Assembly: GCA_038831005.1 (NCBI GenBank)
Contig: JAWBKZ010000008.1
Location: 1-51,092 of the forward strand
DNA: 51,092 nucleotides
Direction: 5' to 3'
Source of the DNA: Ignisphaera sp.
Lineage (GTDB): Archaea; Thermoproteota; Thermoprotei_A; Sulfolobales; Ignisphaeraceae
Below, one piece after another: positions 3,834 through 50,730 of this stretch (its first letter is position 1; the number at the start of each line of letters is the position of its first letter). Under the pieces are notes generated by a model. It was not told the DNA's origin and did no database searches. It saw nothing but the letters and a program-made list of their open reading frames with translations. A program made the position numbers and the translations under genes.

Positions 3834-4418
3834 TTAGTCAATGAGGCTAGAAACTATATATGGTGTTATGAAGGATTCTATGAAGCTGGCGACTAAGAGT
3901 AGTAGAACAATTATCAGGATTATTTTTGGAAGAATCTTCAATGTTTTAGCTATATCTTCTCTATTTCTTTTAAATACATATTTCCAGAAGTCTATACCGA
4001 GCTTAGTTCCAAAAGCTGACGCCATGAGTATTGCTGGAAGTTCGAAAACACCGTGAGGAGCTATAGCTACAAAGCCTAGGAGTGGTGAGCCTCCAGTCAT
4101 AATAACCAACATTATCACCATACCTACAATAAACCCATTGGCAAAAACTATTGCGCCGGGAATAAATACAAGTAGACCTGAGGCTATAGATATGGCCGCA
4201 ACTAGTAGGTTCCTTCTAAATATATAGAAAGCTGTATCAATGCTATAGAATTCTATAGGGATATCTCCGTAAGCTTGCTTGATCATATCATTTACTGTTT
4301 GAAGCTCGTTTGGCTCAAACATCACGAGATATAGTGTAGCAAAAGAGCCTAGAAGCCAACTCACTATGAATATAATGACCATGACCAGGAAAAACATCTT
4401 CAGAGACACAACATTCAC
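3834..4418 (-). CDS. SpoIIM / DUF95 family membrane protein
   Basis: A 194-residue polytopic membrane protein. Hydrophobic segments lie at about residues 7-32, 70-95, 97-120 and 165-190. The family signature is the stretch APHGVFELPAILMASAFGTKLG around residues 120-141, which matches the 'PHG-E-PA' motif of the stage II sporulation protein M (DUF95) family. Archaeal members have nothing to do with sporulation and no firmly known role; they often occur near transport or envelope genes. Here it stands alone between the end of the cobamide operon and a binding protein. Family assignment is confident; function is not. Confidence 0.8.
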   Translation of the reverse strand: MNVVSLKMFFLVMVIIFIVSWLLGSFATLYLVMFEPNELQTVNDMIKQAYGDIPIEFYSIDTAFYIFRRNLLVAAISIASGLLVFIPGAIVFANGFIVGMVIMLVIMTGGSPLLGFVAIAPHGVFELPAILMASAFGTKLGIDFWKYVFKRNREDIAKTLKILPKIILIIVLLLLVASFIESFITPYIVSSLID

Positions 4419-4502
4419 CTCTAGATATGTGCCACAAACTACTGGACTAATATACTGATTTACAGCTATATATTTCTACCTCAATGTATGTCGCTATGAT
4501 GG

Positions 4503-4515
4503 TTGGCTAAGCCAA
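4503..4515. promoter_or_regulatory. Short palindrome TTGGCT-A-AGCCAA
   Basis: A perfect 6-bp inverted repeat with a one-base centre, about 85 nt upstream of the SpoIIM-family start and downstream of the cobamide operon. It may be an operator or chance. Confidence 0.25.
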
Positions 4516-4554
4516 ACTACGTGTATTTGTTTTAATCAGTACTTCAATAGAATG

Positions 4555-4575
4555 GGTTATGGATAATACATAACC
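4555..4575 (-). terminator. Hairpin after the cobamide operon
   Basis: GGTTATG (4555-4561) and CATAACC (4569-4575) form a 7-bp stem with a 7-nt loop, starting 22 nt beyond the stop codon of the last operon gene (4598). No strong T-run follows on the minus strand, so a terminator or 3'-end stabilising role is a guess from position. Confidence 0.3.
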
Positions 4576-4597
4576 ATGTCTTTAGATTCAATTGGTT

Positions 4598-5368
4598 CTA
4601 GTAATCGTATATAGATCTGCATATAGATACAGTTCCTGCACCATCTTCAGCTGGCGTCTTTATTCTCTGACTGATAACATGTAGATCTCTTGACCTTAGT
4701 ATCTCTCTCAAGATTTCTTTTCCCTGCATTTTCTCTGATCTCAAACAATTTATCGGTATCTTGAACGCTATATCCAGTACTTCTCTATCTAGGAGTAGGG
4801 CTACAGCCTTTACACCTATACACTTTGCTATTTCTAGCTCTGGGTATCTACTATAAGCTAACCTGTTAATGGTTTCCTCAAGTTCTTTTTCAACAAGTTT
4901 TAATAGAAAGCTATAGCCAGCGAAAACCTCATCTCCACCACTTCCTGTATAGATACATCTACATCCATCTCTTTTGGCTTCTCTAAGTACTGAATAGAAA
5001 ACTATATCGTTTCTGATCTCTATACATCCACCATCTCTATGCGAGTCAATTCTATCCCTACCTATACACCCAATAACACTGCTCACCAGATTATCGATAT
5101 CTCCTTGATCTATATAGATGTACTTAACATCTATATTGAAGAGCTTAGCTATATGGTTTACATATACAAGATCTTTCGGAAGACCTTGTCTATATACAGC
5201 CGTATAGCCTCTAGGCTTATAGCCAGCTGATATACTTGCTAAAAGCACTAGTGATGTGTCTATTCCACCACTTAAAGCAATACAATCACATCTATACTTC
5301 TCTACAGATTCCACCAGCACATTGAACATCTTCTCTACATATATACTGCAGGGCATGGAGACTCTCAT
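4598..5368 (-). CDS. Asparagine-synthase-like ATP-pyrophosphatase (no glutaminase domain)
   Basis: A 256-residue stand-alone synthetase domain of the PP-loop ATP-pyrophosphatase superfamily. The PP-loop is LSGGIDTS (residues 32-39) and the second asparagine-synthetase signature is TGSGGDEVFAGYSF (141-154). Such domains adenylate a carboxylate or carbonyl. The N-terminal glutamine amidotransferase half of AsnB is absent, so the nitrogen (or sulfur) donor must differ or come from a partner. Its ATG shares one base with the stop of the DUF71 gene (TAATG), and it is the last gene of the cobamide operon, which suggests a corrinoid-related or amide-forming job. The substrate is unknown. True asparagine synthesis is less likely given the length and context. 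Confidence 0.7.
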   Translation of the reverse strand: MRVSMPCSIYVEKMFNVLVESVEKYRCDCIALSGGIDTSLVLLASISAGYKPRGYTAVYRQGLPKDLVYVNHIAKLFNIDVKYIYIDQGDIDNLVSSVIGCIGRDRIDSHRDGGCIEIRNDIVFYSVLREAKRDGCRCIYTGSGGDEVFAGYSFLLKLVEKELEETINRLAYSRYPELEIAKCIGVKAVALLLDREVLDIAFKIPINCLRSEKMQGKEILREILRSRDLHVISQRIKTPAEDGAGTVSICRSIYDY

Positions 5369-5991
5369 TAGATCAGCCTCAAGATAATGTAGCTACCATA
5401 GCTTTCAGATCCTATAGTCTTGTAGCCGAGAGTAGATCTGTGGAGTGGTCCTGTTAAAACTACTGTATGGTATTCGCCTTTTTCTCCTAGAGGATCTACA
5501 CCTATTTTTAGCGCTTTTTCGACAAATAGATCGACATTACTTTTACCTAGTTCTACACCAAGCCATTCACTTAAACTCTCTATACACCCTATTATGAGTG
5601 GTTTTACACCATCATTGAGCTCTCTATAGAGAAGATCAAGAGAATCTAAACCCCATAGAGGTTCAACAAGTGTTGCTCCTACTTCTTTAGCGAGTTTCTC
5701 CATATAGTTCAGATGCTCATCAACATACACATCTCCAGCAACTATAACATCTACCTGAAGCTTCTTAAGCAGATCAACTGTCTCCATAAACTCTCTACCT
5801 CTAGTAAGCCTTGCCACAGTAACCGGTATTTCGGCTAGAAGAAGTGTCTCAATAGATTTACCTATGTTGAGTAGATGTGGACTTGGTCTCGGAAACTCGT
5901 ATACAAGCACTATACCTAGATCCACTTTTCTACCATATCGATAGACAGCGTAGTAGGAATCCTTGCCTCCAGATAGAAAAGCTACATACAT
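5368..5991 (-). CDS. DUF71 / COG2102 ATP-pyrophosphatase (B12-linked subgroup likely)
   Basis: A 207-residue PP-loop protein with the exact motif SGGKDS at residues 7-12. The DUF71 family includes diphthine-ammonia ligase (Dph6), which amidates the diphthine carboxylate. Published comparative genomics splits off a subgroup that clusters with B12 salvage genes. The gene lies 2 nt after the SerK-like gene, inside a run of cobamide genes, so the B12-associated subgroup is the better call. The region GEYHTVVLTGPLH (near residue 170) matches the family's conserved C-terminal block. The exact substrate (for instance a corrinoid side-chain carboxylate) is not established. Confidence 0.75.
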   Translation of the reverse strand: MYVAFLSGGKDSYYAVYRYGRKVDLGIVLVYEFPRPSPHLLNIGKSIETLLLAEIPVTVARLTRGREFMETVDLLKKLQVDVIVAGDVYVDEHLNYMEKLAKEVGATLVEPLWGLDSLDLLYRELNDGVKPLIIGCIESLSEWLGVELGKSNVDLFVEKALKIGVDPLGEKGEYHTVVLTGPLHRSTLGYKTIGSESYGSYIILRLI

Positions 5992-5993
5992 AT

Positions 5994-6686
5994 TCAGACA
6001 CCAAGCTTTTGGAGAAGCTTTAAGGGATAGATTACGTAGAGATTCTTGAGATAGGTCTTGTGGTATGTTGTTCTAGGAGGAAAAGTCTCACTTTTTGTAG
6101 CAACTCTATAGATATCTTCTGGCTCTAGTTTTGGCATCAATACACATATATCTGAATAATAACATTTATCTATGTTTATAGGAATCTTAACCATATCGAA
6201 TAACGTATTTGAGGAACCAAGTTCTTTAAACGCTAGATAAACATCAATTCTATCAATATTCAAAACCATCATTATATCACCCACCTTAACCATCATTTCA
6301 TCGCTACCTCTCTTAACCATAGACTCTAGCTCTTCTACAGTCTTTACCACAGATCTATAGTCTATCAATCTACTTGACCCAATATACATCCATCCACCAA
6401 CATCATCTACATCTCTGTAGTCAGCTAAATAAGCTGGAACTACTTTTATACCAAGAAATTTTAGAGCATTAAGTCTATGATGACCATCGATAACTATAAG
6501 CCTGTTCTTTTCCACAATAATAGGCTTCCTTAAAGCTCCATCAACACTTATTGAGCCTAGAACTCTAGAACTATGTATAGGGTCGATATCTTCGTGAGGA
6601 ACAACATCATCTATGTAGAGTAGAACTAGATCAGCAAGACAATCAATACATGGATTCTCCTGGATTCTATATCTCTTTATTGGCAT
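5994..6686 (-). CDS. ParB/sulfiredoxin-fold protein, SerK-like free amino acid kinase
   Basis: A 230-residue protein with a ParB/Srx-type N-terminal domain. It shows the motif VIDGHHRLNAL (DGHHR at residues 67-71) and an acidic residue, E32, in the early loop. These resemble archaeal SerK, which phosphorylates free L-serine and which automatic annotation often labels 'ParB nuclease'. The gene lies in an operon with cobD (threonine-phosphate decarboxylase) and cbiB, which together need L-threonine phosphate or a serine analogue. I infer that it supplies the phosphorylated amino acid for the aminopropanol linker of cobamides. A DNA-binding ParB role is unlikely because no ParA or HTH is present. 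It ends 2 nt before the DUF71 gene. Confidence 0.65.
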   Translation of the reverse strand: MPIKRYRIQENPCIDCLADLVLLYIDDVVPHEDIDPIHSSRVLGSISVDGALRKPIIVEKNRLIVIDGHHRLNALKFLGIKVVPAYLADYRDVDDVGGWMYIGSSRLIDYRSVVKTVEELESMVKRGSDEMMVKVGDIMMVLNIDRIDVYLAFKELGSSNTLFDMVKIPINIDKCYYSDICVLMPKLEPEDIYRVATKSETFPPRTTYHKTYLKNLYVIYPLKLLQKLGV

Positions 6687-6722
6687 TTTACGCTACCTCA
6701 GAATTGTTAACATGATCTATCA

Positions 6723-7697
6723 CTATATGTTAGCTAAGTATATAAGATGATGTACAGATAACGCCAAGAGATGTAGAACAACTACATAGACTATAGATAC
6801 ATAGATAGAGAGTTTTACAGCTTTTAGTATATCGATATGTGTTGGTAAATGAAATTCTCTACCTATAGTATAGCTCTCAATCTTTTCAAGCTTAACACCT
6901 AGACATCCAGCTGTAGCCGCCATAGGGTTTCCAGCATTTATGCTTTCTGTAGATCTTCTATCTCTTAAATATATGTACCAACTTCTTCGAATAGATCCAC
7001 CAACAATAGAACATAAAGCTAGCGTAATTAGTGCAGTTAATCTTGCTGGAACAAAATTGAGGAATGTATCTACTTTTGCTGAAAACCATCCTATATCCTT
7101 AAACATAGGCTCTCTATAACCTACTGCAGAATCCATTGTATTAGCTAACCTCTGGATTAATGCTCCTATGCAGCCTAGAAAGAGGTAGAAGAATAGTGGT
7201 GATGTAAATCCGTCTACAAGACTCTCAAACAGAGACTCTATAGCGGCTGAAGCTATGTGGCCTTCATAAAGATTTTCAACATTTCTTCTAACGATATTTG
7301 AGACAGTTTTTCGAGCATGCACTATATCTCTATTCTTAAGATGTAGATAAACAGCTTTAACATAGTCTAGAAGCAGTTTTAGTGATAGAGAGACCTTCAA
7401 GAGATATATAGAGAATAATATCCAGAGAACTCTATGTATAGAGTTAAACACATAGAGAACAAACATATATAGAGCTGTATGGATAAAGACTGTGGCAATC
7501 CATAGAGCTACACCCATTAACCTATTCTTCGGAAGCTTTTTGTAGAGAATCATGACGAATCTATACGATGTGTGTACAGGATGTATCTTGTACATTATCC
7601 CGCTGTGGTATGGGTAGAGAAAATCAAGTATAAGAGCGCCTAAGAGTATTGAAGAGAACTCCACTATATCTCTAGGGAGAATCCAATCCAGATCCAT
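6723..7697 (-). CDS. cbiB: Adenosylcobinamide-phosphate synthase CbiB
   Basis: Integral membrane enzyme joining aminopropanol phosphate (or a variant) to adenosylcobyric acid. It has hydrophobic segments along its length and family motifs: HPVH near the N-terminus, a central block with NVENLYEGHIASAAIESLFESLVDG, in which the N-EG-AS-ESF-D pattern stands out, and STESINAGNPMAATAGCLGV late in the protein. The frame opens at ATG 7742, but I prefer ATG 7697, 15 codons in, because AGGTG lies about 7 nt upstream and the overlap with cobS shrinks from 79 to 34 nt. It lies downstream of cobS and 36 nt before the SerK-like gene. Assignment is firm. Confidence 0.88.
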   Translation of the reverse strand: MDLDWILPRDIVEFSSILLGALILDFLYPYHSGIMYKIHPVHTSYRFVMILYKKLPKNRLMGVALWIATVFIHTALYMFVLYVFNSIHRVLWILFSIYLLKVSLSLKLLLDYVKAVYLHLKNRDIVHARKTVSNIVRRNVENLYEGHIASAAIESLFESLVDGFTSPLFFYLFLGCIGALIQRLANTMDSAVGYREPMFKDIGWFSAKVDTFLNFVPARLTALITLALCSIVGGSIRRSWYIYLRDRRSTESINAGNPMAATAGCLGVKLEKIESYTIGREFHLPTHIDILKAVKLSIYVSIVYVVVLHLLALSVHHLIYLANI

Positions 7698-44694: not shown

Positions 44695-46170
44695 GTGTCC
44701 TCTAAATGCGTATTTATTACTTTTTATAGTGAGCCTATTGAAGCTTTCCTAACTTCTGTTTTTAGGATTCTGGATGTTTTTGATTGTAACAGTATCGCTA
44801 TATTTACATCTGAAGGTCGTGTTGATGAAGCTAAGAGAATTATTGATTTAGTTAGAAGTTATATTCCTAACGGTATTGATCTACATATATATCCTGATTT
44901 TCCTCTACCTAATAACCTTGACAGTTTTGATAATCTTGTTAATAAGATATATGAAAAATTAAGTAATGTTTCGTCTAAAGATGTAGCTATTGTAGCTGTC
45001 TATACAGGGTCTAGAATTGAGGTTTCTGCAACTGTATTAGCTGTATCTAGAATTAGAGAGAATACTGTTCTTGTCTATACACCATTTTTCTGGGGTCCGT
45101 GGAGTAGTCTCTTCTATCCTTTTACTCCTAAGCCTCTAGAACCTCTAGTAATTCTACATCCAGATGCAGAATCTGTTAAAAATCTAGTTAAGCAGTCGAA
45201 TAAACAATATGTACCGAATATACTGAGTAACTTAGGCAATAAAGTATCTGAACTACTTAGCGAGATAGGTAAACAGCTATCGATACTCAGAAAAAGGACA
45301 TCTTATGAACAATACAAAATGAATCTACATTACGCATACAGTACTATGCTGTATCCAGTTGATGTCATGTGTTCAAAAATTAGAGTGTCTATACATGTTG
45401 ACGGTAGTGAGAAGCTTTCAGCTGAAGCTAGAGACTACTGTAGTACCAAAGATGTTGTAGAGATTGTTGATGGACTTGGCAAAGGGTTTATAAAGCTAAG
45501 AGAAAGTGGCTCTATAGATAGTGATAGACTTAATGCTCTCGATCTACTCTTCAAATTCTCATCAATACTAACTCTAGCTGTAGAAGAGTGTAGCTATGGA
45601 TGTAGCGATAATAAAGATCTTCTATTTATAGATGCTCTAAGAACTATAGGTGGTAGCGATAGTATTCTGGTTGATACAAACGTTCTCTACGCATCACTTC
45701 ATACCCAACTCTATGAACATCGTGTAGAAAGGATTAAAGTACCTCTATGTGCTTATGTAGAGCTTCTTAAGCATAGAACTCACTATAGAGAGAACTATGA
45801 AAAACTTAGATCAGAAATAGCGCTTCTAGTTCTAGATGAAGTGAAAACCATAGGTATACCACTAGATAGTAATGCATCTCAACAGCCATGTGAAGTAGGT
45901 ATGGCTTTAGCAAGAGATGCAATAGCGGTTACAGCAGATAGACATGCATATACAGATCTCTTTAAACACCTCAATGTGAAAGCTATTCTAGTATCCCCAA
46001 AGCCTATAAAGAGCATTAGATTCATATATAGAGAGGATATGAGGAGGATATCATATGCCTACTACGCTTTAGCACAACTAAAAGCTCTAACAAGCTATAC
46101 CCCGATAGAGAAGATTCTACAGAATATGAAGATAAATATAGAGTTTAAACAAATACATGATAAACAATAA
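44695..46170 (+). CDS. Probable CARF-PIN fusion protein (CRISPR ancillary nuclease candidate)
   Basis: A 491-residue protein with no standard annotation that I recognise outright. The N-terminal about 150 residues form a Rossmann-like unit: strand CVFITFY (5-11), SIAIFTSEGRVDEAKRIIDL (33-52), and DVAIVAVYTGSRIEVSATVL (96-115), which matches the CARF ligand motif TGG-x-M. A helical and mixed middle (about 180-320) follows. The C-terminus is a PIN nuclease: D327 (LVDTNVLYA), E356 (AYVELLKH), E400 or D391, and D415 (VTADRHAY). CARF domains bind cyclic oligoadenylate made by type III CRISPR complexes; a PIN RNase output would give collateral RNA cutting. It begins GTG 44695 after GGTGA, and the CRISPR array starts 1.3 kb downstream. 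Confidence 0.6.
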   Translation: MSSKCVFITFYSEPIEAFLTSVFRILDVFDCNSIAIFTSEGRVDEAKRIIDLVRSYIPNGIDLHIYPDFPLPNNLDSFDNLVNKIYEKLSNVSSKDVAIVAVYTGSRIEVSATVLAVSRIRENTVLVYTPFFWGPWSSLFYPFTPKPLEPLVILHPDAESVKNLVKQSNKQYVPNILSNLGNKVSELLSEIGKQLSILRKRTSYEQYKMNLHYAYSTMLYPVDVMCSKIRVSIHVDGSEKLSAEARDYCSTKDVVEIVDGLGKGFIKLRESGSIDSDRLNALDLLFKFSSILTLAVEECSYGCSDNKDLLFIDALRTIGGSDSILVDTNVLYASLHTQLYEHRVERIKVPLCAYVELLKHRTHYRENYEKLRSEIALLVLDEVKTIGIPLDSNASQQPCEVGMALARDAIAVTADRHAYTDLFKHLNVKAILVSPKPIKSIRFIYREDMRRISYAYYALAQLKALTSYTPIEKILQNMKINIEFKQIHDKQ

Positions 46171-46950
46171 TGTAGATCTCGCATCATTCTTATCTTATAA
46201 AGCTTGAATGCTCTAAAAAGTCGAAGAATAATATCTTTATGATGATACAACATCTATAAACACTCTCTCATTATAGAATAATATCTCTCAAAACATCATA
46301 TACCGATACAATAATACTATAAAATAAGAACCAGTACAGCAAAACAGTCACCATATTATACATCATTGAGTACCTCTAGTTAAACTAAACAATATTGTTT
46401 ACTATGTATATAATGTTGATACTACTTATTACCCTTCTCCGATACTTCTTAAGACAAGTAAATAGCATTACTGTTGAAGAGAGGCTATATTCTTGATCAA
46501 AAATAGGTTAACAAATACCATCCATACATCAATAAATCTAGTATACATCTTACAGCTTCTAAAGAACGTATAGCAATAAGATATACCTCGAGTCACTCAC
46601 AAGAATAGATCTCTATATATCATGGCTAAGATTTTGATAAATATTGAGATATAGCTTCAATTTACATCAAATAGCTTTACGAAAGCGTTCACTAGCATCA
46701 ATACACTTAATAGCTATAACTCTACACAATTGCTTCAACTTTTTATGAAGCTTGATACTGTTTTTCAGCAACTTTATTCTCGAAGACAATTTATAGTCCA
46801 TACTTAACATATACATAGTTAATAGATTCTATATCAACCATAGCCATGAATTAGATATAGCTTTATAGCCACTATCTATGTAGAGAATCACAGCTATATA
46901 TTGCTATAGATAGCTAACTTCTTACTACTCAATATCATGCATAAAGATTT
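46171..46950. other. Gene-poor region with short decayed minus-strand frames
   Basis: No intact gene seen. Three short minus-strand open stretches stand out: about 46829-46903 (YIAVILYIDSGYKAISNSWL), 46667-46801 (44 codons, basic, with RIKLLKNSIKLHKKLKQL), and about 46505-46605 (EVYLIAIRSLEAVRCILDLL). They are in the same strand and order but different frames, as in a decayed gene. A transposase origin is only a guess. Confidence 0.25.
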
Positions 46951-47460
46951 TCTCAAACATCAAAACTACAATTAGCTATCAATAAACATTGATGTAGATA
47001 AATCAATAACATAGAAGCTATAAAGAAACCGATATCTAATAAACACAATGCTAACACATATCTAACTATAACAAGAACTCTAAGAATCCTAAAGAAACCA
47101 ACAAAACCTAAACTTTCAACTACACCCAACCCCTCAAACACAATATAGTCTAATCACCACCTAACACTATAGCTCTTCTCAACCAACAATAAACCATTAA
47201 CCAAAATAAACAACACAAACAATAAACCATTAACCAAAACATATACTCAACTCTATGCAGGTAATACTTTCAATACTTACTCATTAGAACATATAAATTC
47301 AATTCTTTTCATCACATCATCAGAACATCTACATCAGCTCAACTCTTACTCATTAGAACAACCATTATATAAATCATCAATATAGCTATGAATCTTCTGA
47401 TTAAATTCATAAAAATATTTATAAACCCTAAAAAACACAAATATATAAATGTAAACACAA
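46951..47460 (+). promoter_or_regulatory. CRISPR leader with internal direct repeats
   Basis: A/T-rich, gene-free DNA ending at the first repeat. It holds two direct repeat pairs: a 22-bp unit at 47185-47206 and 47218-47239 (period 33), and CTTACTCATTAGAACA at 47276-47291 and 47345-47360 (period 69). TATA-like stretches at about 47414-47422 and 47442-47450 could start array transcription toward the right. The repeat ends in GAAAG, as in crenarchaeal arrays whose leader lies on this side. Confidence 0.65.
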
Positions 47461-50348
47461 GAAACTCCCAAAAGGGAGTAGAAAGGCAGGTCCAGTTGCT
47501 GTTGTTAGATCCATCGGCAATTTAGCTAAGAAACTCCCAAAAGGGAGTAGAAAGTAGTTATACTAATACTGTTGTTAGCAGCACCTCATGTGGTTGCGCA
47601 GGAAACTCCCAAAAGGGAGTAGAAAGATAGATATCTATAGTAATTGCGTTTGTAATCAGGTTCTGTTGAGAATTCGAAACTCCCAAAAGGGAGTAGAAAG
47701 GCATAGAGCCTACAGCCCCCCGTCTTCACCTCCCCAAGAATAGAGAAACTCCCAAAAGGGAGTAGAAAGTTAATACAATATGATATTTGTCGAATGGTGT
47801 GTCTGTTGGTAATTCGGAAACTCCCAAAAGGGAGTAGAAAGCGGGAGAGGCATGTAGACCACTACACCGCAGCTCTCCACACATAGAAACTCCCAAAAGG
47901 GAGTAGAAAGGTATTAATTCCACCCTCTTTTCCTCCAGTTCTTCAACATCCTTTAAGGAAACTCCCAAAAGGGAGTAGAAAGTCATGTCTGGAAAACATC
48001 TTCACATTTCACCTCTTTTACAGGGGCTAGAAACTCCCAAAAGGGAGTAGAAAGTGGTTTGTATAATTTATTGTATAGTTTATCTAACCAAAAGTAAAAG
48101 AAACTCCCAAAAGGGAGTAGAAAGGACTATATCACAGAACAGGATCTAAAACTAATACTGCATATGCAGAAACTCCCAAAAGGGAGTAGAAAGGATTTAG
48201 TGAGTTTCGAGTGATAACATAGAGCAAGAGATTGGAAACTCCCAAAAGGGAGTAGAAAGTATTCTGTATATTTCATCAGGTGGTAGAACACGGTAAACCG
48301 ACCAGAAACTCCCAAAAGGGAGTAGAAAGATGACCGCAAAAGCCTCCTAATTCTGTGATATAGTGCTTTCTTCTCGAAACTCCCAAAAGGGAGTAGAAAG
48401 ATATCTTTGTCTTTAGTTTACATGTTTCCTCATGTAATCCTGTCGAAACTCCCAAAAGGGAGTAGAAAGTATTTATCTAGATACTTTATCTGCCTCTCAT
48501 AGTTCCTGAAGAAACTCCCAAAAGGGAGTAGAAAGTCTTGTAGATGTAGAAGCTACTAAAAACAAGCTTTATGTAGAAACTCCCAAAAGGGAGTAGAAAG
48601 GAATCTGTAGCATTATATTTAGCATCTGAAATCAATAAAGAAGAAACTCCCAAAAGGGAGTAGAAAGTACGTAATGTACAAATATCCCTACCCCGTCATC
48701 TCCAGAGACCCAATGAAACTCCCAAAAGGGAGTAGAAAGCAATATAATAACCAGTGTTGGTACAAGTGAAATAGATTTAGGAAACTCCCAAAAGGGAGTA
48801 GAAAGGAAGCAGTTAGAAATCTGATATCTACTGTAAGCACAATTATACTTTTGAAACTCCCAAAAGGGAGTAGAAAGGCAACAATGTTGTTCAACTTCCT
48901 ATAAGCCTCAGTATTATAGTAACGGAAACTCCCAAAAGGGAGTAGAAAGCTAGCTAATTCAGCTTCAAGTTTCCTAGCAATCATCCCTCATCCAGAAACT
49001 CCCAAAAGGGAGTAGAAAGCAGATCTCAAAGACTATTTTCTTCACCGTCTTCTCAATCAATTCAGAAACTCCCAAAAGGGAGTAGAAAGCATATGTCTGC
49101 GCAGCTAGAGATGCATCAAAACATATATCTGCGAAACTCCCAAAAGGGAGTAGAAAGCAAACTCGAATAACTCCAGCCCCTCCTTCTCAGCTTCTTCTCT
49201 AAATGAAACTCCCAAAAGGGAGTAGAAAGGTTGTAATCATTGTTGTTCTCACTTGCATAAAATTGATCCTTTCGAAACTCCCAAAAGGGAGTAGAAAGTG
49301 ATGAACCTTGATGACGCTGAAAAGATCTCTATCTTAGCATTGAAACTCCCAAAAGGGAGTAGAAAGATTAGAGAGTAATTCATCTCGTTTATCTGGTTTG
49401 AAAACTGCTAAGAAACTCCCAAAAGGGAGTAGAAAGAGACGATTACAGCAGCACATGGGGGAGGAAGCATGCGCTATGGACTGAGAAACTCCCAAAAGGG
49501 AGTAGAAAGGTTTTTGCTGTTGCTGTTGCTGCTGTTGATGTGGCTGTTGATGAAACTCCCAAAAGGGAGTAGAAAGAGAATACCGGATCCAATGCGGAAG
49601 AAATTCATAATATCTGAACCAGAAACTCCCAAAAGGGAGTAGAAAGAGGGAATTAATTAAAGAAAAGGCAAAGCTTTTAGAGGTGTTAGAGAAGGAAACT
49701 CCCAAAAGGGAGTAGAAAGATCTTCAGCTTCTTTTTCCTTGGTAGTTCAGCTTCATCTATTTCTTGAAACTCCCAAAAGGGAGTAGAAAGCTATAGAATC
49801 CTTGTCAATAGAGCCATGCATAATCAAAACATTTGAAACTCCCAAAAGGGAGTAGAAAGTGCAGTAGTATAATGTGTCATATTCCTTGACAACTACAATA
49901 GAAACTCCCAAAAGGGAGTAGAAAGTCGTAGCAGTAGATCCCTAAAACAACCTCTCTATTTCCCTCGTAGAAACTCCCAAAAGGGAGTAGAAAGTAGAAG
50001 AATAGAGAGTGATATATATCAGAGTGTCATGCCCAGACGAAACTCCCAAAAGGGAGTAGAAAGTCAACTACAACACCACACAACATAGCCGAAACATGTT
50101 GGAACAGGAAACTCCCAAAAGGGAGTAGAAAGTGTGCATCTGGTACCAGATGTTGATGGAAACGGGGGTTTCTATCCACAGAAACTCCCAAAAGGGAGTA
50201 GAAAGTTGTTCACAGAAGTGAATTACTATGCAATGTTGATTGATATGTTTGAAACTCCCAAAAGGGAGTAGAAAGTTTGTAGCAAGTTACGCCGCGTTCA
50301 TGGCTATAACACTCTTCCTCGCAGAAACTCCCAAAAGGGAGTAGAAAG
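47461..50348 (+). CRISPR. CRISPR array, 42 identical 25-nt repeats, 41 spacers
   Basis: The repeat is GAA, then ACTCCC-AAAA-GGGAGT (a perfect 6-bp stem, 4-nt loop), then AGAAAG. I counted 42 copies, first at 47461-47485 and last at 50324-50348, with no mismatch in any copy, including the last. Spacers run from 40 nt (48536-48575) to 49 nt (47627-47675), mostly 44-47. The 25-nt length and 3' GAAAG match crenarchaeal type I-A/III arrays; the crRNA 5' handle would be GTAGAAAG if read left to right. No cas gene is inside the window, so the type is inferred. Minus-strand frames rich in FYSLLGVS or FLLPFGSF across the array are repeat translations, not genes. Confidence 0.98.
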
Positions 50349-50411: not shown

Positions 50412-50730
50412 ATGCTAAAGAGATAGAAGATTTATTTAAGAATCCACAAAACATCTTATTATCTGTTAAAAAGATATTGAGAAAATTGTGTCAAGGGCTA
50501 AGATCTATCTCTTTAGCTCAGTAGCCAGAGGTAGATATACATATTTAAGCGATATAGATATATCAACAGTTCTCGAAAACCTCCATAATATAGATGTAGA
50601 CACTTTGAAGATATATATTAAGAGTAGGTATAGAGGATACCCAATAGAGCTACACATAGTTGATAGACAAACCTTCGAGAAATGCTGCGTGAAGTTCATT
50701 AAACCAGAAGAGCTTATAGAGATAACATAG
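50412..50730 (+). pseudogene. MNT-type minimal nucleotidyltransferase, frame broken twice
   Basis: The open 80-residue C-terminal part (GTG 50488 onward) has the nucleotidyltransferase core LFSSVARGRYTYLSDIDI, where the usual GS of the GSxARG motif has become SS, and the DxD pair is intact. Upstream, other frames encode the missing N-terminal helix. Reading ATG 50412, with one extra A in AAA near 50417 and one in AAAAA near 50470, gives a continuous MLKEIEDLFKNPQNILLSVK and then KDIEKIVSRAKIYLF. So two single-base losses break the gene, or the sequence has two errors. MNT proteins are antitoxin partners of HEPN toxins; no HEPN gene is seen in the remaining 360 bases. Confidence 0.65.

Follow-up and report, generated by a model that had tools for sequence, protein, structure and literature searches.

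A CARF–PIN gene between a NAD operon and a CRISPR array

We describe a gene from a hot-spring archaeon whose product is predicted to be a signal-switched RNA-cutting defense enzyme. The gene lies near the end of a 51,092-nucleotide stretch of Ignisphaera DNA (hereafter the window), where 491 codons stay open from a GTG start and the opposite strand is dense in stops (Table 1). This ORF is a real gene encoding both a CARF and a PIN domain, an architecture that a preliminary description had read from the letters alone and that PADLOC, Foldseek, residue conservation and a PIN profile match bear out.

The start codon is 215 bp downstream of a nadA–nadC–aspDH operon (aspDH, aspartate dehydrogenase). 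On the other side, the gene is 1.3 kb upstream of a CRISPR array made of 42 identical copies of a 25-nt repeat. The 200–240 bp or so preceding the first repeat are conserved across the five same-repeat arrays of this genome that we compared. This places the gene on the leader side of the array, as had been claimed, and outside the leader itself. An A+T-rich, ORF-free interval of roughly 1 kb (46171-47210) separates its stop codon from the leader. Directly after the array, an 80-aa ORF (50488-50730) carries a nucleotidyltransferase domain (PF01909, E=2.7e-6) and resembles the MNT half of HEPN–MNT toxin–antitoxin pairs; the remaining 340 bp of the window hold no partner ORF for it.

A scan of the rest of the window recognized no cas gene, in line with the preliminary description. 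Elsewhere, the genome encodes a complete type I-A set (Csa1, Cas1, Cas2, Cas4, Cas6, Cas3'', Cas3', Cas5a and Cas7). The repeat of the window's array is found 160 times in the genome, spread over several arrays, and a Csa3-like CARF–HTH gene, assigned by similarity, sits beside arrays with this repeat.

Table 1. Positions of the CARF–PIN gene, its domains and conserved residues, and the neighboring CRISPR array. Counts give conservation among aligned homologues.
Feature	Position	Strand	Remarks
CARF–PIN gene	44695..46170	+	491 aa, GTG start; PADLOC CARF_m3–CARF_PIN
N-terminal CARF (Rossmann) domain, residues 1–130	44695..45084	+	AF2 model, Foldseek
YTGSR, residues 103–107, strand-4 CARF motif	45001..45015	+	R107 in 29/39 homologues
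FFWGPWSSLFYPFTPKP signature, residues 131–147, linking CARF domain to middle part	45085..45135	+	W136 and P142 in 38/39
Middle part, residues 148–319	45136..45651	+	conserved R199, N210, C226, C249
PIN nuclease domain, residues 320–437	45652..46005	+	PIN profile match to 3i8o
PIN acid 1, D327 (DTN motif)	45673..45675	+	D in 39/39
PIN acid 2, E356	45760..45762	+	E in 38/39
PIN acid 3, E400	45892..45894	+	D or E in 38/38
PIN acid 4, D415 (TxD motif)	45937..45939	+	D in 38/38
C-terminal tail, residues 438–491, and stop codon	46006..46170	+	conserved Y457
CRISPR leader	47250..47460	+	conserved before all five arrays of the genome that share the repeat
CRISPR array, 42 perfect repeats GAAACTCCCAAAAGGGAGTAGAAAG, 41 spacers of 40–49 nt	47461..50348	+	

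A CARF domain fused to a PIN nuclease domain

The PADLOC model PDLC01984 (CARF_m3–CARF_PIN) matches the protein over its full length (E=7.7e-28, residues 12–471 of 491), and two more PADLOC CARF models match residues 33–129. PDLC01984/PDLC01983 is among the CARF–PIN groups described by Makarova and colleagues (2020). The window protein has diverged within this family: it scores 96 bits, and the protein of another archaeal genome (G041) scores 736 bits. It shares with the family its architecture, the WGPW…YPF.P signature in residues 131–147 and the four PIN acids, and differs in an altered CARF motif and in coming from a genome without detectable type III CRISPR. Searches of the whole protein against Pfam and NCBIfam, middle part included, returned no match.

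A full-length AF2 model built from a two-row alignment was poor (pLDDT 42) and gives no dimer or PIN geometry, so we folded the sensor domain alone, likewise from a two-row alignment (mean pLDDT 68, pTM 0.65). Up to residue 120, pLDDT is mostly 70–86 and strands and helices alternate in a β-α-β-α order. The CARF reading of the N-terminus held up when this model was compared with the PDB by Foldseek: the first seven matches are Cam1, followed by Csm6 and Csa3, with Cdn1, Card1, Cad1 and the ring nuclease Sis0455 further down and pantothenate synthetases and glycosyltransferases scattered among them. The low-confidence full-length model gave the same picture.

The YTGSR motif falls where the preliminary description had placed it, after a Rossmann pattern, at the strand-4/helix-4 turn of the predicted domain. 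The CARF strand-4 signature has been defined as [DN]X[ST]XXX[RK] (PMC4012209); in the window protein it reads AVYTGSR, with R107 as the expected basic residue and departures at positions 101 and 103. The D and S/T places of the signature are A and Y in the Ignisphaera clade, S/T being found in most homologues.

None of the Pfam PIN models scores against ten family members, and the PIN call was therefore checked by other routes. When a profile of 23 PIN segments (A4) was compared with all PDB sequences, the sole match at E ≤ 10 was chain 3i8o, the PIN domain of MJ1533 (E=0.0043), with an alignment that runs end to end over 115 of 118 positions; a profile of the whole family matched nothing in the PDB. 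The window protein has 59 acids; in an alignment with 39 homologues from several archaeal families, only at D327, E356, E400 and D415 do 95% or more of the sequences keep an acidic residue, and their order and motif context are those expected for a PIN domain (DTN … E … (C)D/E … TxD). These are four of the acids that the preliminary description had listed, whereas D391, its alternative to E400, is kept in 5 of 39 homologues and falls away. Aligned with hhalign against five VapC proteins of the same genome, the PIN part gave a weak match covering motifs 1 and 2 only (P 0.007 versus 0.5–0.6 for controls); against Csa3 it gave no alignment. Judged by these residues and profiles, the C-terminus is a PIN nuclease built on the four acids. 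Two cysteines that flank the active-site motifs, C352 and C399, are kept in 35 of 39 homologues, and one may guess at a stabilizing disulfide between them.

Surveys have recorded the CARF–PIN architecture from 2014 onward (PMC4012209, PMC12669027). Our literature search found no biochemical study of any CARF–PIN protein, consistent with the earlier statement that PIN outputs are rare and biochemically uncharacterized; what is new here is a diverged member of a catalogued family that is retained where no known signal synthase was found. The second group, CARF_m12–CARF_PIN (PDLC01979, about 550 aa), also joins a CARF to a PIN region related to that of the window family, but its CARF belongs to another subfamily and only the C-terminal half aligns. 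Csm6 and Csx1 (CARF–HEPN) resemble the window protein in sensor fold and in the predicted order of N-terminal CARF sensor and C-terminal RNase, but they carry a HEPN RNase (RxxxxH) where the window protein has a PIN domain, and they act with type III complexes. The acid motifs D–E–D/E–D recur in VapC-type PIN toxins and in the PIN of MJ1533 (3i8o); VapC is restrained by an antitoxin, whereas the PIN domain described here is predicted to be fused to a ligand sensor instead. Csa3, a CARF–HTH regulator of type I-A that binds cA4 (PMC8844856), matches the sensor fold and is a transcription factor without a nuclease, unlike the window protein.

Distribution, type III markers and selection

CARF nucleases are seen as type III CRISPR outputs. 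The preliminary description followed this reading and had the protein switched by type III cyclic oligoadenylates, perhaps in trans. However, the genome assembly that holds the window (G000; 99.5% complete, nine contigs) has no match to TIGR02577 (Cas10), PF22335 (Cas10 palm) or PF03787 (type III RAMP), and PF22335 and PF03787 are both negative in seven further carriers of the gene (G003, G007, G008, G041, G078, G079 and G080). Clear full-length or near full-length family members were found by profile search in 34 of 229 genomes of the class, in a patchy pattern, with more distant relatives in Sulfolobaceae-like genomes (f11, f6); a single scan of genome contigs gave one relative, and a search of plasmid and phage sequences gave no family member. 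We found type III markers in 18 of the 34 carriers and in 92 of the 195 other genomes, which is no better than background (Fisher p=0.58 over the 229 genomes, ignoring phylogeny). On the gene tree of the carriers, type III presence switches at least 7–8 times. Neither of two features tested for a type III ancillary effector, Cas10 in the same genome and co-occurrence of the family with type III, was found. Homologues are thus spread in genomes without type III, the outcome that had been named beforehand as speaking against the proposal; it weakens the type III claim and leaves the CARF–PIN claim standing. For this genome, a type III link is not supported.

One might ask whether a type III system is present and was missed, as very divergent Cas10 and RAMP proteins, on an unassembled plasmid or in the missing 0.5% of the assembly. 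The genome is indeed in nine contigs, and PF22335 is blind to a cluster in another genome, G220, where PF03787 does match, which tells us that Cas10 needs scoring by more than one marker. Since two independent marker families are negative in all eight of the genomes above, and since G041 and G078 are single contigs with 99% completeness, we regard this explanation as rather unlikely. The protein that PF22335 misses in G220 (L116) is an 863-aa ORF (4271-6862) in a type III-B-like (Cmr-like) cluster near CARF–PIN, and it is its neighbors that PF03787 matches.

The search for other signal synthases gave no candidate among mCpol and SMODS proteins. No mCpol was found in the genome of the window or in eight type III-less carriers. 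SMODS matches in four genomes resembled CBASS; the one in the window's genome, its sole SMODS match, is a CCA-adding enzyme (CCA tRNA nucleotidyltransferase). For the type III-less carriers, the searches thus gave no match to Cas10, type III RAMP or mCpol and identified no CBASS-type cyclase, the SMODS match resolved being the one in the window's own genome.

We also compared the position of the gene with that of CRISPR loci. CARF–PIN is within 12 kb of Cas10 in three of the ten carriers that have both on one contig (0.18 expected, P ~7e-4), at 7–12 kb and in Sulfolobaceae-like genomes in all three cases, and within 12 kb of type I-A Cas7 in four of 13 carriers with both on one contig (0.55 expected, P ~5e-4). 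In one of these, G008, it adjoins csa3 and is 3 kb from the Cas7 of a type I-A operon; in G042, G228 and G210 it is no more than 7 kb from Cas7. No neighbor genes recur among the relatives and most copies have no cas neighbors, which makes CARF–PIN a solitary gene. Such isolation is what a housekeeping PIN RNase carrying an unrelated Rossmann domain, rather than a defense sensor, would also present; we find this account very improbable, as the fold matches are mainly CARF proteins and not Rossmann enzymes generally, and as the family is patchy (34/229) and closer to CRISPR loci than chance predicts.

Between the closed type III-less genomes G041 and G078, dN/dS is 0.106 over the full gene and 0.095 over its last third, next to 0.097 for a type III-bearing pair (G021–G101). 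CARF–PIN is under purifying selection in these two closed genomes without type III, suggesting that it functions even where no type III system is resident, unless type III was lost only recently in both. This value and the intact window copy, with its four acids, also speak against the gene being an idle or decaying leftover of a lost type III system, which we consider improbable. Broken copies do occur, in G006 (an insertion of about 250 bp) and G042 (two frames), but both genomes have type III, so decay does not track its absence.

A proposed solitary receptor and its possible signals

We favor, with somewhat more than even confidence, the reading that the gene encodes a CARF_m3-family effector that stands alone, a ligand-gated PIN RNase that is probably responsive to cyclic oligoadenylates. 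Dimerization, ligand identity, RNase activity, biological outcome and the source of the ligand in this genome are parts of the model that we infer. By analogy with Csm6 and Csx1, a CARF homodimer would bind a nucleotide second messenger, for which a cyclic oligoadenylate is the likeliest candidate; this would shift the middle part and turn on the metal-dependent C-terminal PIN domain, which would then cut RNA and slow or stop the infected cell. Standing outside any type III operon, the protein could serve as a solitary receptor for whatever signal-making module the lineage holds, carried along while type III loci come and go. In this genome, the ligand might be made by a type III system that is transient or escaped detection; alternatively, the protein might answer another signal. 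Against this model count the lack of Cas10, RAMP and mCpol matches, the background-level co-occurrence with type III, the two departures from the CARF motif and the poor quality of the full-length structure model.

An intact family that is under selection without a known synthase points either to solitary effectors that outlast gaps in type III or to a new source of signal. It is possible, if on the unlikely side, that in type III-less archaea CARF_m3–PIN works without Cas10, responding to the nucleotide of an unrecognized enzyme or to the state of a type I-A system; that would amount to a second-messenger-driven RNase branch independent of type III. A parallel is Csa3, a CARF regulator that is itself a type I-A protein; as with Csa3, the CARF–PIN gene has type I-A loci for company in the window's genome and in G008. 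Acids that stay intact and a low dN/dS where type III is absent, the altered CARF motif of the Ignisphaera clade, the complete type I-A locus that shares the array repeat in this genome and the four copies near Cas7 described above would all fit. At the level of genomes, however, type I-A Cas7 is not significantly more common in carriers (19/34) than in the other genomes (81/195; p=0.14, again ignoring phylogeny), three well-covered carriers (G003, G007 and G181) show neither type III nor type I-A, and the synthase searches came back empty. The stand-alone, probably cyclic-oligoadenylate-responsive effector is our preferred reading.

Several copies elsewhere in the class deserve mention in their own right. 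In G006 (L006/L047; G006:C1:127477-127725), the insertion interrupts the gene inside the WGPW motif; it is strongly structured (fold of -112 kcal/mol including short flanks), matches no Rfam family and may be a small non-autonomous mobile element. In G042 (L054; G042:C1:306100-307393), the split match neighbors an array of 51 repeats and is 6.5 kb from the type I-A Cas7, in a genome that still has type III. Finally, CARF_m12–CARF_PIN proteins of 546–596 aa recur in many genomes of family f9 (L104, L105, L112), some of which (G025, G044 and G054) have no Cas10 match, a second branch on which CARF–nucleases raise the same question.
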